The position numbers and the translations under genes were made by a program. Under the pieces are notes generated by a model, which was given only the letters and a program-made list of their open reading frames with translations, was not told the origin of the DNA and searched no databases. Positions 24,323 to 27,481 of a DNA stretch of 34,596 nt are shown one piece after another. How positions within the stretch are numbered: position 1 is the first letter of the stretch; each line of letters begins with the position of its first letter. The stretch comes from Sulfuritalea sp. (GTDB lineage: Bacteria; Pseudomonadota; Gammaproteobacteria; Burkholderiales; Rhodocyclaceae), in NCBI GenBank assembly GCA_030696505.1, contig JAUYSD010000268.1, forward strand, positions 1 to 34,596. The letters are read 5' to 3'.

Positions 24323-24395
24323 TGATTACACCTGTTACACTTTTCGAGTGAAACGTATAACCTTACTGACTCGTCCGCGAATGGTCAAGATTTAT

Positions 24396-24434: not shown

Positions 24435-24489
24435 TATAGTCGGCCTTTCGCAGTGAAAAACTGCTGAAAGGTGACAGGAGTCACTCCTG
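24435..24489 (+). promoter_or_regulatory. -10 box and structured leader with ribosome-binding switch for the sigma factor gene
   Basis: TATAGT (24435-24440) has a poor -35 occupied by the dyad. The leader holds a hairpin CTTTC-g-CAGT/ACTG-ct-GAAAG (24445-24470). Then two mutually exclusive small stems compete. GTGAC-AGGA-GTCAC (24471-24484) shows the ribosome-binding AGGA in its loop, while CAGGAG-TCA-CTCCTG (24475-24489) hides it and the CTG start in a stem. Confidence 0.45.
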
Positions 24490-25050
24490 AGTTCCCGAAC
24501 CGAACTATCCAATTTCCTTGCCAGCATAGAGCGACGCGCCTTCAAACAGGCCATGTTTGCCATCCGAAACGAGGAGACCGCACTGGACATTGTTCAGGAT
24601 GCGATGATGCGTCTCGCGGAAAAATACGGCAACCGCCCAGGCGCGGAATGGCCGATGCTGTTTCAGAGAATCCTGCAAAATGCCATTCGCGACTGTTACC
24701 GGCGATCCAAGGTAAGGTCCTTGTGGACTACGCTGCTGTCATCCCTGTCGCCAAATGAAGATGACGATACCGATCCGCTTGAAACCTTTGCCGGAGAGAA
24801 TGAGTCTGCCGCTCTGGCTCCGCCGCACCAACAGCTGGAGAGATCGCAACTCCTTGGTATTATTGAAAAAGAGATCGAAAAACTACCGCCGCGTCAACGT
24901 GAAGCCTTCCTGATGCGTTACTGGGAGGAAATGAACATTGCCGAGACCGCGGCGGTAATGGGTTGCACGGAAGGCAGCGTTAAGACACACTGTTCGCGCG
25001 CCACGCATACCCTGGCCGCAGCGCTCAGGGCAAAAGGCATAGAGCTATGA
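24487..25050 (+). CDS. ECF-like RNA polymerase sigma factor with probable CTG start
   Basis: Region 2 is ELSNFLASIERRAFKQAMFA and on to about residue 75 (DIVQDAMMRLAEKYG, then LFQRILQNAIRDCYRR). Region 4 is LPPRQREAFLMRYWEEMNIA plus GCTEGSVKTHCSRAT (~140-175). The reading frame is open from a TGA at 24472 and homologous sequence begins well before the track's ATG at 24553, which would cut region 2. The only candidate start between is CTG 24487, with AGGAG 6 nt upstream, giving 187 aa (SSRTELSNF). It overlaps the DUF3619 gene by 4 nt, so the two are coupled. The target promoters are unknown. Confidence 0.85.
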   Translation: MSSRTELSNFLASIERRAFKQAMFAIRNEETALDIVQDAMMRLAEKYGNRPGAEWPMLFQRILQNAIRDCYRRSKVRSLWTTLLSSLSPNEDDDTDPLETFAGENESAALAPPHQQLERSQLLGIIEKEIEKLPPRQREAFLMRYWEEMNIAETAAVMGCTEGSVKTHCSRATHTLAAALRAKGIEL

Positions 25051-25433
25051 ATGAAAATACGGAATTTGGCTACAAGACAAGGCAGATCCTGAACGAGGGG
25101 GTAGATATTCTCGACAAGAGGGTGACTGCTCGTCTTTATGAAGCCCGCCAAGCCGCCCTGAATGGGCAGCGCCCGACGGTAATGGGCTTGCGCATCGCAG
25201 GAATTGGACACAGCGTGGAGCTTGCAATTTTTCCGCAAGTGCGGAACCTGCTTGCTGTTGTGGCTTTGAGTGTCGGTGCCATAGGAACCTACTACTGGGA
25301 TGCCTATGAGCAGGCCCGTGAATTCGAGGAAATCGACAGCGCACTACTGGCCGACGAACTACCCCCTGCCGCCTATCTTGATCGAGGCTTCCACGCATGG
25401 CTCGAGTACGCTTCGGACTCATCCTCGCAGTAG
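25047..25433 (+). CDS. DUF3619 family single-span membrane protein
   Basis: This 128-aa protein has a ~60-residue cytoplasmic start (ILNEGVDILDKRVTARLYEA). One membrane helix follows at about 68-88 (NLLAVVALSVGAIGTYYW), then an acidic tail. The pattern matches DUF3619. An N-terminal soluble part, one span and a small outer part, translationally coupled to a sigma factor, is the layout of many anti-sigma factors, but the sequence has no zinc-binding anti-sigma motif (HxxxCxxC). Its start overlaps the sigma stop by 4 nt and its end overlaps the next gene by 37 nt. Confidence 0.85.
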   Translation: MNENTEFGYKTRQILNEGVDILDKRVTARLYEARQAALNGQRPTVMGLRIAGIGHSVELAIFPQVRNLLAVVALSVGAIGTYYWDAYEQAREFEEIDSALLADELPPAAYLDRGFHAWLEYASDSSSQ

Positions 25434-25930
25434 CGTTCTGGCTGGCCTTCCCGCCCAGTCATGCAGCCATAGTTCCTCCGCTTTCGCAGCCGTCCTGGTC
25501 CGAGTTGACTGCGGAGCAGAAGCGCGTTCTCGCTCCGCTTTCCAGCGAATGGGACAGCATGGAAGGCTTCCGACGAAAGAAGTGGCTGGGTATTGCTCAG
25601 CGCTACCAGTCCATGGCTCCCGGCGAACAGGCCCGCATGCAGCGACGCATGACCGATTGGGCCAAACTCACGCCCGACGAGCGCAAGCGGGCAAGAGACA
25701 AGTACAGATCGCTACAAAAAGCGCCCGCTGAAAAAAAGGAAGCGGTCAAGCTGAAGTGGCAGGAGTACAAGGAACTTCCGGAGAGCGAGAAAACCCGCCT
25801 CAAGACTGAGGCCGCGCGCAAGCCGACGCCGCGCCCTGCGCCCTCGAAGCCAGCCGTTGCGCCCAAACCATCGATCCCATCGGGCGGACCGCCGCCTGTC
25901 GCCCCGGTTGCTCCCGCGACCACACGTTAG
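25397..25930 (+). CDS. DUF3106 family exported helical protein
   Basis: The 177-aa product has a signal peptide (FGLILAVAFWLAFPPSHA, cut near residue 23). The helical domain (~35-125) contains LTAEQKRVLAPLSSEWDSM and KWLGIAQRYQSMAPGEQARM. LTPDERKRARDKY also lies there, recalling the L-T-x-x-Q repeats of CpxP/ZraP-like proteins. The C-terminal 50 residues are rich in proline and alanine, typical of an extended periplasmic or envelope tail. Start 25397 overlaps DUF3619 by 37 nt, which implies coupling; a later start would lose the signal peptide. The function is unknown. Confidence 0.85.
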   Translation: MARVRFGLILAVAFWLAFPPSHAAIVPPLSQPSWSELTAEQKRVLAPLSSEWDSMEGFRRKKWLGIAQRYQSMAPGEQARMQRRMTDWAKLTPDERKRARDKYRSLQKAPAEKKEAVKLKWQEYKELPESEKTRLKTEAARKPTPRPAPSKPAVAPKPSIPSGGPPPVAPVAPATTR

Positions 25931-25939
25931 TCGGCAACT

Positions 25940-26410
25940 ATGTCTGTCGCAGCGGCGCCCACCGCCGCCCAACTGCCGAGCCTGCGTCGCCGGGTTGCAA
26001 GCATGCTTTACGAGAGTCTGCTGCTGCTTGGGGTACTTTCCGTCAGTTTCATGCTGCCGCACCTTGCCCTGGGAATGGGATTCGACATCGTCTTACCGGG
26101 TTGGGTGCTGCTCGGCCACGTATTCATCGTGCTGGGCGCCTATTTTCTCTGGTACTGGATTCATGGTGGGCAGACCCTGGCGATGCAGACCTGGAATATC
26201 AGGCTGACCACGCCAAGTGGCGCTCAACCATCCCCGGCACGTCTCGCAGTGCGTTATGTTCTGGCCTGGCCCAGTCTCCTCTATTTTGGTGCCGGAGTGC
26301 TCTGGGCCCTTCTCGATCGCGATCGCCAATTCCTCCATGACCGCCTGGCGGGGACCCGATTGGTGTTCAAGCGAGAGCAGGGTTCCTCAGCGTCGATCAA
26401 CCCACCATAG
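25940..26410 (+). CDS. RDD family membrane protein
   Basis: This 156-aa protein carries the RDD family features: LRRRVASMLYESLLLLGVLS at the start, GGQTLAMQTWNIRL in the middle, and DRQFLHDRLAGTRLVF near the end. Three hydrophobic segments are visible. RDD proteins are small inner-membrane proteins of mostly unknown role; some are sodium/proton antiporters. It is the last gene of the sigma cluster, and its 3' end overlaps convergent lptG by 24 nt. Confidence 0.9.
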   Translation: MSVAAAPTAAQLPSLRRRVASMLYESLLLLGVLSVSFMLPHLALGMGFDIVLPGWVLLGHVFIVLGAYFLWYWIHGGQTLAMQTWNIRLTTPSGAQPSPARLAVRYVLAWPSLLYFGAGVLWALLDRDRQFLHDRLAGTRLVFKREQGSSASINPP

Positions 26411-27481
26411 CATTCCGGCGGCGGTCATCAAGAACAGCACGCTCGGCGTTATCGCGGAGTAGAAGGGTGGCCAGCTGTTGATTGCGCCGAGACTTGAAAA
26501 TAGACCATTCAACATGTGGAAACCGATGCCGAGCATGATGCCGGCAAATACGCGGATGGTCACCGCGCCCATTCGATCCTGCATATAGGCAAACGGCAGG
26601 GCCAAAGACATCATCACCAGCGCCGCCAAGGGGTAGAAGAGTTTCTTCCACATCGCTATTTCATAGCGGTCTGTTTTTTGCTGATTGCCGCTCAAGTGGC
26701 GGATAAACAGATATAGATTGACCAAGGACATGCGCTCCGGCACCACCAACAGCACGGACAACAGGTCCGGATTGAGCGCTGATTTCCAGCTCAGCTCGCG
26801 ATACCTTTCCACGTGCGCCATATCGCCGGAAAATACCGTGCGGACTACGCCATCGAGTGACCATGTATTTGCACCGAGATAGGCACCTCCGTCCGCTTGG
26901 GTGATCGAAAGCAGCTGAAACCGGTCATCGAATTCGAACACGCGCACGTTGCGCAAAGTCGCGTCCGGAAGCACCTCGCGAACATTCACGAACGAGCGCT
27001 CGTCCCGGACCCACAGGCCGGAACGAAACTCCTGCGCCACCAGGGAGCCCATCGCCTCGAGCCTCAGTTGCTGGGCAGCCCGTTCCGATGGCGGGGCCAC
27101 GAACTCGCCGACCAGCAGGGTCAATGCAGAGAACACCAGTCCAATCTTGGCCAAAGTGAACAGCAGATCCTTCGTCGAGAGGCCGGCGGCGCGCAATACG
27201 GTAATCTCGGAGTGGCGCGCCAGAACGGTGAGGGCATACAGCGTTCCGATCAAGACGCCGATCGGGAACAACTCATAGAGCCGGCCAGGCAAGGTCAGAA
27301 TCACATAGCCCAGCGCATGCTGAATCTGGTAACTGCCCTTGCCTATGCTTTCAAGTTGATGAATCAGATCAAAAAACGCAAAGAGCATCAGGAATGCGAG
27401 CAATACCAAGCCAGTGGACGCGTAGATCTCACGCGCCAGGTGGCGTTCGTAGAGTTTCAGCGCCACCGCAGCTTTCCCCAT
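26387..27481 (-). CDS. lptG: Lipopolysaccharide export permease LptG
   Basis: This 364-aa permease subunit of the LptB2FG ABC exporter extracts LPS from the inner membrane. Six membrane helices flank a periplasmic beta-jellyroll domain (~140-260), with SEITVLRAAGLSTKDLL as the coupling-type helix near residue 95. The C-terminal helices have FAYMQDRMGAVTIRVFAGI and end TAAGMLWWVDRR. Family-standard length. The start overlaps the lptF stop by 25 nt, which couples the two. Confidence 0.95.
   Translation of the reverse strand: MGKAAVALKLYERHLAREIYASTGLVLLAFLMLFAFFDLIHQLESIGKGSYQIQHALGYVILTLPGRLYELFPIGVLIGTLYALTVLARHSEITVLRAAGLSTKDLLFTLAKIGLVFSALTLLVGEFVAPPSERAAQQLRLEAMGSLVAQEFRSGLWVRDERSFVNVREVLPDATLRNVRVFEFDDRFQLLSITQADGGAYLGANTWSLDGVVRTVFSGDMAHVERYRELSWKSALNPDLLSVLLVVPERMSLVNLYLFIRHLSGNQQKTDRYEIAMWKKLFYPLAALVMMSLALPFAYMQDRMGAVTIRVFAGIMLGIGFHMLNGLFSSLGAINSWPPFYSAITPSVLFLMTAAGMLWWVDRR

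Follow-up and report, generated by a model that had tools for sequence, protein, structure and literature searches.

We investigated the window, the whole stretch of 34,596 nucleotides analyzed here, which corresponds to contig C49 in an assembly of 398 contigs and 4.45 Mb. On its plus strand lie, in this order, the genes for a sigma factor, a DUF3619 protein, a DUF3106 protein, and an RDD protein, flanked by the divergent ilvB, where the branched-chain amino-acid genes lie, and the convergent lptG (Table 1). The sigma and DUF3619 genes overlap by ATGA (25047–25050), the DUF3619 and DUF3106 genes share 37 nt, and the 3′ ends of the RDD gene and lptG overlap by 24 nt. The preliminary description had called the first gene a sigma factor, with which the profile matches agreed (TIGR02937, 73.5 bits; Sigma70_r4_2, 63.4 bits; and NF006550), Sigma70_r2 matching weakly at 17 bits, below its cut-off; the set of regions, 2 and 4 and no region 3, is that of an ECF factor (sigma-70 group 4), and the nearest named relatives of the sigma sequence (88–90%) were Rhodocyclales and Sulfuritalea MAGs. 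Its naming of the DUF3619, DUF3106, and RDD proteins and of the convergent lptG was likewise borne out by the scores in Table 1, and the signal peptide, LTAEQ/LTPDE turns, and proline-rich tail that it had described in DUF3106 were all present. Its sigma boundary of 24435 was wrong, because the sigma frame is interrupted by two stops between 24421 and 24486.

Table 1. Coordinates of the sigma factor module and adjoining features in the window
Feature	Position	Strand	Remark
Probable sigma-70 promoter of divergent ilvB, TTGACC-N17-TAAGGT	24360–24388	−	Conserved −35/−10 letters
Shine-Dalgarno CAGGAG of the sigma gene	24475–24480	+	6 nt 5′ of the CTG start
ECF sigma factor gene, inferred CTG start, 187 codons + stop	24487–25050	+	NF006550/PRK09047, 265.7 bits
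DUF3619 protein, 128 aa, predicted anti-sigma factor	25047–25433	+	PF12279, 99.3 bits
DUF3106 protein, 177 aa, predicted periplasmic regulator of DUF3619	25397–25930	+	PF11304, 109.3 bits
RDD membrane protein, fourth gene, Burkholderiales version only	25940–26410	+	PF06271, 60 bits
lptG, convergent neighbor, outside the module	26387–27481	−	TIGR04408, 389.9 bits

Gene order, on which the preliminary description had made its reading depend, was conserved far beyond chance: the succession of sigma factor, one-span DUF3619 protein, and exported DUF3106 protein was kept in 192 of the 197 beta- and gammaproteobacterial loci, a set in which some loci were fetched via DUF3619 and a few came from the same genome (distinct set, 173). 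The ATGA overlap between the sigma and DUF3619 genes recurred in 170 of the 192 loci. DUF3619 was found in 215 of 300 Burkholderiales genomes, and DUF3106 in 51 of 61 relatives; more broadly, 78 of 276 genomes from the class and 34 of 299 from the phylum had it. In other orders, the one-span partner beside DUF3106 also belonged to the DUF3619 family, with 123 of 130 aligned members matching PF12279 at E values up to 0.1. The outer genes were more restricted: RDD followed the module in 92 of the 103 Burkholderiales loci with room for it and in 0 of 56 others, and lptG, convergent in all 68 Burkholderiales loci where it was seen, was never seen beside the module in other orders. A place for RDD and lptFG among the core parts was therefore not supported, and no link to LPS was found. 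Such clade-specific neighbors (RDD, ilvB, and lptG) might suggest that the operon is a chance neighborhood with no common function; however, the three-gene core recurs, ATGA coupling included, in many families and orders, which leaves this explanation a negligible probability. The three-gene operon is real and conserved. As a side observation, many gammaproteobacterial loci carried an extra small exported gene with the motif LEFLGxWE..DGEW.DP between the one-span protein and DUF3106 (seen in L038, L045, L046, L050, L126, L130, and other non-Burkholderiales loci).

The sigma gene appears to start with CTG, a codon that normally initiates very few genes. In the window, the stretch from the upstream in-frame stop to the conserved sigma N-terminus contains no ATG, GTG, or TTG; the first canonical start, ATG 24553, would drop 22 conserved residues, and gene finders restricted to ATG/GTG/TTG would truncate the front of the protein to that point. 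All 18 loci of the same genus had the CTG, shortly 3′ of GGAG. Among 160 distinct loci, the start column held NTG in 135 (CTG 93, ATG 26, TTG 14, GTG 2), whereas the leucine codon six positions after the start was CTC in 40, CTG in 37, CTT in 31, CTA in 20, and TTG in 16; because the two codon mixes differ, the start column is no ordinary leucine (p about 1e-31). Amino-acid conservation of the sigma factor also sets in at the CTG, with an entropy of about 3–4 bits before it and mostly 0–2 bits after it. In 52 of the 93 CTG loci there was no canonical start upstream, and an SD-like 4-mer preceded 64 of the 93 CTG starts as against 47 of 646 control windows. None of the 26 ATG starts was preceded by an SD-like sequence, this group being taxonomically clustered and subject to clade effects. 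A second collection gave CTG in 54 of 63 records inspected, its CTG isolates including Propionivibrio dicarboxylicus, Rhodocyclus tenuis, Azospira sp. I13, and Aromatoleum. Judging from these sequences, we infer that the sigma factor is translated from CTG 24487. The literature search gave no CTG-started sigma gene. A weak start kept by selection would suggest that the initiation of translation determines how much sigma factor is made. A further-reaching notion, which we hold to be rather doubtful, is that the CTG, with a good Shine-Dalgarno sequence before it, itself acts in regulation: the output of sigma factor would track how strictly ribosomes reject non-AUG starts, so that the state of initiation would feed into a response to envelope charge, with DUF3106 as a basic periplasmic sensor governing other basic exported proteins. 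Additionally, a 6-bp hairpin between the SD and the CTG (24475–24489), which the window shares with two close relatives, was rejected as neither conserved nor above shuffles.

The AF2 model of the DUF3619 protein (pLDDT 76) has cytoplasmic helices at residues 3–20 and 24–40, a low-confidence linker, a span from about residue 61, and a helix at 113–125 on the periplasmic end, the cytoplasmic part being short (about 45–60 aa). Hydropathy gave one span in 161 of 191 family members, and both results support the single span described earlier. Basic residues precede the span and acidic ones follow it in the family, an arrangement that puts the N-terminus on the cytoplasmic side. Both ends of the protein are conserved and the span is not. 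The inner consensus is f..kir..Ld......L...RL..AR..AL, and the outer consensus is D..LLaDdLPp.AYlD.GF..WL in betaproteobacteria and ELL...D.LElYE.LDFY.WL in gammaproteobacteria; in the window, the acidic tail bears D-x2-LL-x-D-x-LP-x2-AY-x-D-x-GF-x2-WL and has a charge of −9 (median: −6 in beta-, −10 in gammaproteobacteria). As the preliminary description had stated, there was no recognizable anti-sigma motif: no known anti-sigma family was matched by profile or fold, no class I (ASDI: RseA, ChrR, RsiW) Pfam family occurred among 130 members, and the family consensus had no His/Cys (zinc) motif. RseA-type kinship received an hhalign probability of 0.2% and was not supported. Foldseek of the model against the PDB gave nothing significant, and the weak PDB sequence matches, ribosomal L30 among them (E from 0.07 to 0.8), were attributed to chance. 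In the class II anti-sigma factor CnrY, the short cytoplasmic part consists of two helices (PMC7406223, PMC8103513), and the DUF3619 model has the same two short cytoplasmic helices and one span. By this analysis, DUF3619 is most likely a CnrY-like anti-sigma factor.

Its role could also be positive, not inhibitory. FecR can act as a co-activator, its N-terminus being needed for sigma activity (PMC7406223), and DUF3619 spans the membrane once and is conserved at its periplasmic end. However, the DUF3619 family and its neighborhood showed no FecR, STN, or TonB-receptor signature and the cytoplasmic part is short, so that a co-activator in place of a plain inhibitor seems improbable.

The DUF3106 protein comprises a basic helical domain followed by a proline-rich tail, and its AF2 model (pLDDT 88) has seven confident helices after the signal peptide. 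The mature protein has a net charge of +15 in the window (median: +10 in beta-, +19.5 in gammaproteobacteria). Across 192 members, mature DUF3106 had no Cys and 1.2% His, and the invariant columns were Trp; this composition gives no sign of a metal site, and conserved His/Met/Glu metal ligands of the CnrX type were not found in these members. Like the LTxxQ family (CpxP/Spy/ZraP), DUF3106 is small, exported, and helical, with LTxEQ-like turns, but the kinship to CpxP/ZraP suggested earlier was not supported: hhalign gave 2.3% to Spy and to CpxP, Foldseek of the model against the PDB gave nothing significant, and the LTXXQ profile matched 8 of 83 members, as weak Pfam cross-matches with a best E of 0.0035. 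We consider DUF3106 most likely to be a basic periplasmic partner of DUF3619.

Upstream of the sigma gene, TGTCAACC-N14-GCGTT, with slight variants, was found in 26 of 43 non-Burkholderiales loci; it reads as an ECF-type promoter motif, a candidate for autoregulation through an AAC-type −35. The most frequent gapped pair in this region occurred in 21 of 44 non-Burkholderiales loci, compared with a shuffle maximum of 6. The motif was absent 5′ of the sigma gene in Burkholderiales loci, including the window. The promoter assignment for betaproteobacteria consequently rests on gammaproteobacteria and the shared sigma sequence, and the betaproteobacterial operon is apparently transcribed from other promoters. 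A candidate for the sigma promoter in betaproteobacteria, GGTCAAG, occurred in 32 of 74 distinct betaproteobacterial upstream regions and was rejected, as it reads as the −35 of ilvB, which is transcribed divergently from the opposite strand; a conserved T and A lie at −10 spacing on the ilvB side. Positions 24360–24388 are thus probably the sigma-70 promoter of ilvB and no target site of the module sigma factor. This ilvB promoter is conserved in Rhodocyclales and relatives.

Genome-wide, GTCAACC-N14-GCGTT gave 103 matches in 50 non-Burkholderiales genomes, as against 22 for the reversed pattern and 15 at a spacing of 12. Beyond the sigma promoters, it lay 11–80 nt 5′ of DUF4382 lipoproteins (about 620–640 aa) in many of these genomes, and also 5′ of exported proteins with D-R-R-G-D-R repeats and of one LTxxQ-like protein. 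Some DUF4382 genes carried the sigma promoter without a single mismatch (L242–L248, L252, L255, L258, and L259), and in several genomes the DUF4382 gene was about 1 kb past DUF3106. Among betaproteobacteria, 57 genomes with the module gave only slightly more matches than the control (70 versus 53), and in 16 of 30 inspected loci the motif was 5′ of small exported Lys/Ala-rich proteins of the pattern MNKLLA.L.AGLFATTAFA...KKAKKAKK; these 16 loci represented seven genera, ten of them coming from the genus of the window. Both exact sites in the window's own genome (C23:17261 and C159:12296; loci L234 and L235) were 71–72 nt 5′ of exported K/A-rich genes. These predicted targets resemble the acid-shock protein Asr of Escherichia coli in being exported, repetitive, and Lys/Ala-rich. 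One scored 24 bits to NF033636 (Asr), and kinship with Asr is not established because this is below the curated cut-off of 50 bits and the similarity is of low complexity. The regulon is most likely an envelope-protection set.

We infer that the sigma factor uses these promoters, and that in betaproteobacteria, too, the module sigma factor is the reader of the motif. Another ECF sigma factor might read it there, with the module controlling something else, given that the betaproteobacterial sigma gene lacks the motif and that further sigma genes of the window's own genome, weak matches to the profile, could read the sites. We think this unlikely: the betaproteobacterial motif and its spacing are the same as those of the autoregulatory site of the orthologous gammaproteobacterial sigma factor, sigma region 4 (GCSEGSVKTHxSRA) is common to both groups, and none of 15 motif sites from 40 genomes without the module had a Lys/Ala-rich target.

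We also examined covariation between the proteins within clades, on small sets (Neff 68 and 48); a mixed beta- and gammaproteobacterial set was set aside, as it was dominated by the clade split. In gammaproteobacteria, the cytoplasmic part of DUF3619 was the partner in 11 of the top 20 pairs for the sigma factor and in 1 of 20 for DUF3106 (p 0.001); in betaproteobacteria, it was the partner in 9 and 3, respectively (p 0.08). DUF3106 covaried with the periplasmic part of DUF3619 in 18 of the top 20 pairs in gammaproteobacteria and 13 of 20 in betaproteobacteria. Charge complementarity and the within-clade covariation split agree with a sigma factor held on the inner side and DUF3106 bound on the outer side, although the samples are small. 

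The preliminary description had guessed at a sigma, anti-sigma, and sensor system with an envelope role. Gene order and its conservation, topology, the non-Burkholderiales ECF promoter, and the predicted regulon of exported proteins support both parts of this guess, and we regard it as probable that the three-gene core is an ECF sigma/anti-sigma/periplasmic-partner switch of the cell envelope. Alternatively, the sigma factor and DUF3619 would form a sigma/anti-sigma pair, and DUF3106 would be an envelope-protecting output of the operon and not a sensor. DUF3106 does resemble regulon members in being exported and strongly charged, it is under the sigma promoter in gammaproteobacteria, and the operon there carries a further small exported gene. 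Nevertheless, DUF3106 was apart from the sigma gene in just 5 of the 197 loci, the acidic tail of DUF3619 is conserved, and the covariation of DUF3106 points to the periplasmic side of DUF3619; we therefore rate an output role as possible and somewhat unlikely.

In the switch that we favor, the CTG start would keep the sigma factor scarce, and the two-helix cytoplasmic end of DUF3619 would hold it at the inner membrane. The basic DUF3106 would bind the acidic periplasmic tail of DUF3619 and report or tune the envelope state, in a role likened to that of RseB on RseA or CnrX on CnrY. An envelope change might then alter the contact between DUF3106 and DUF3619 and free the sigma factor by proteolysis or conformational change. 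Free sigma factor would read GTCAACC-N14-GCGTT promoters, yielding more charged exported proteins: in the window's bacterium, two small Lys/Ala-rich Asr-like exported proteins, and in gammaproteobacteria, its own operon, the DUF4382 lipoprotein, charged-repeat exported proteins, and the LTxxQ-like protein. DUF3106 itself would be a target in gammaproteobacteria, which would give negative feedback. What the computation establishes is the gene order, the topology, the conservation of the start codon and SD, and the promoter motif with the genes behind it; the binding, the direction of control, and the signal are presumed.

Modules of a sigma factor, an anti-sigma factor, and a periplasmic partner are already known as a kind, namely RpoE/RseA/RseB and CnrH/CnrY/CnrX. 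CnrX is a helical periplasmic partner, and the nickel-cobalt response system CnrH/CnrY/CnrX of Cupriavidus metallidurans is like the present module in its ECF sigma factor, one-span two-helix anti-sigma factor, and helical partner, a likeness of architecture. It differs from the module in gene order, and the latter has no evident metal site in DUF3106 and no efflux genes nearby. The envelope stress system RpoE/RseA/RseB of E. coli shares the architecture of sigma factor, one-span regulator, and periplasmic partner, as well as envelope-protein targets (predicted here). However, the module sigma factor matches RpoE at 27% over 88 residues, DUF3619 is unrelated to RseA, no RseB homolog is in the operon, and the sigma-E consensus promoter differs from GTCAACC-N14-GCGTT.

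The switch is widespread and apparently unstudied. No mention of DUF3619 or DUF3106 was found in the literature searched. Also apparently new are the conserved CTG start and the target set, although the sigma group may already be catalogued in the large ECF classification. If our reading is true, DUF3619 and DUF3106, two families of unknown function common to much of the beta- and gammaproteobacteria, can be assigned roles, the first as an anti-sigma factor and the second as its partner in the periplasm; a sigma factor not studied before can be given a promoter motif and a set of candidate targets, and a class of charged low-complexity exported proteins gains a regulator. SbrI/SbrR (PA2896/PA2895) of Pseudomonas aeruginosa is an ECF sigma/anti-sigma pair tied to cell-envelope stress (PMC10418997). 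We dropped it as a characterized ortholog and consider it probably another sigma group, as PA2896 is paired with Xanthomonas RpoE6, and RpoE2 has no listed P. aeruginosa homolog (PMC6085468). Among Xanthomonas ECF mutants, a virulence effect was reported for rpoE1 only, and RpoE2 (XC_3383) is 40.2% to Ralstonia RSc2078 (PMC6085468); RpoE2 and RSc2078 are a possible ortholog pair of the module sigma factor.
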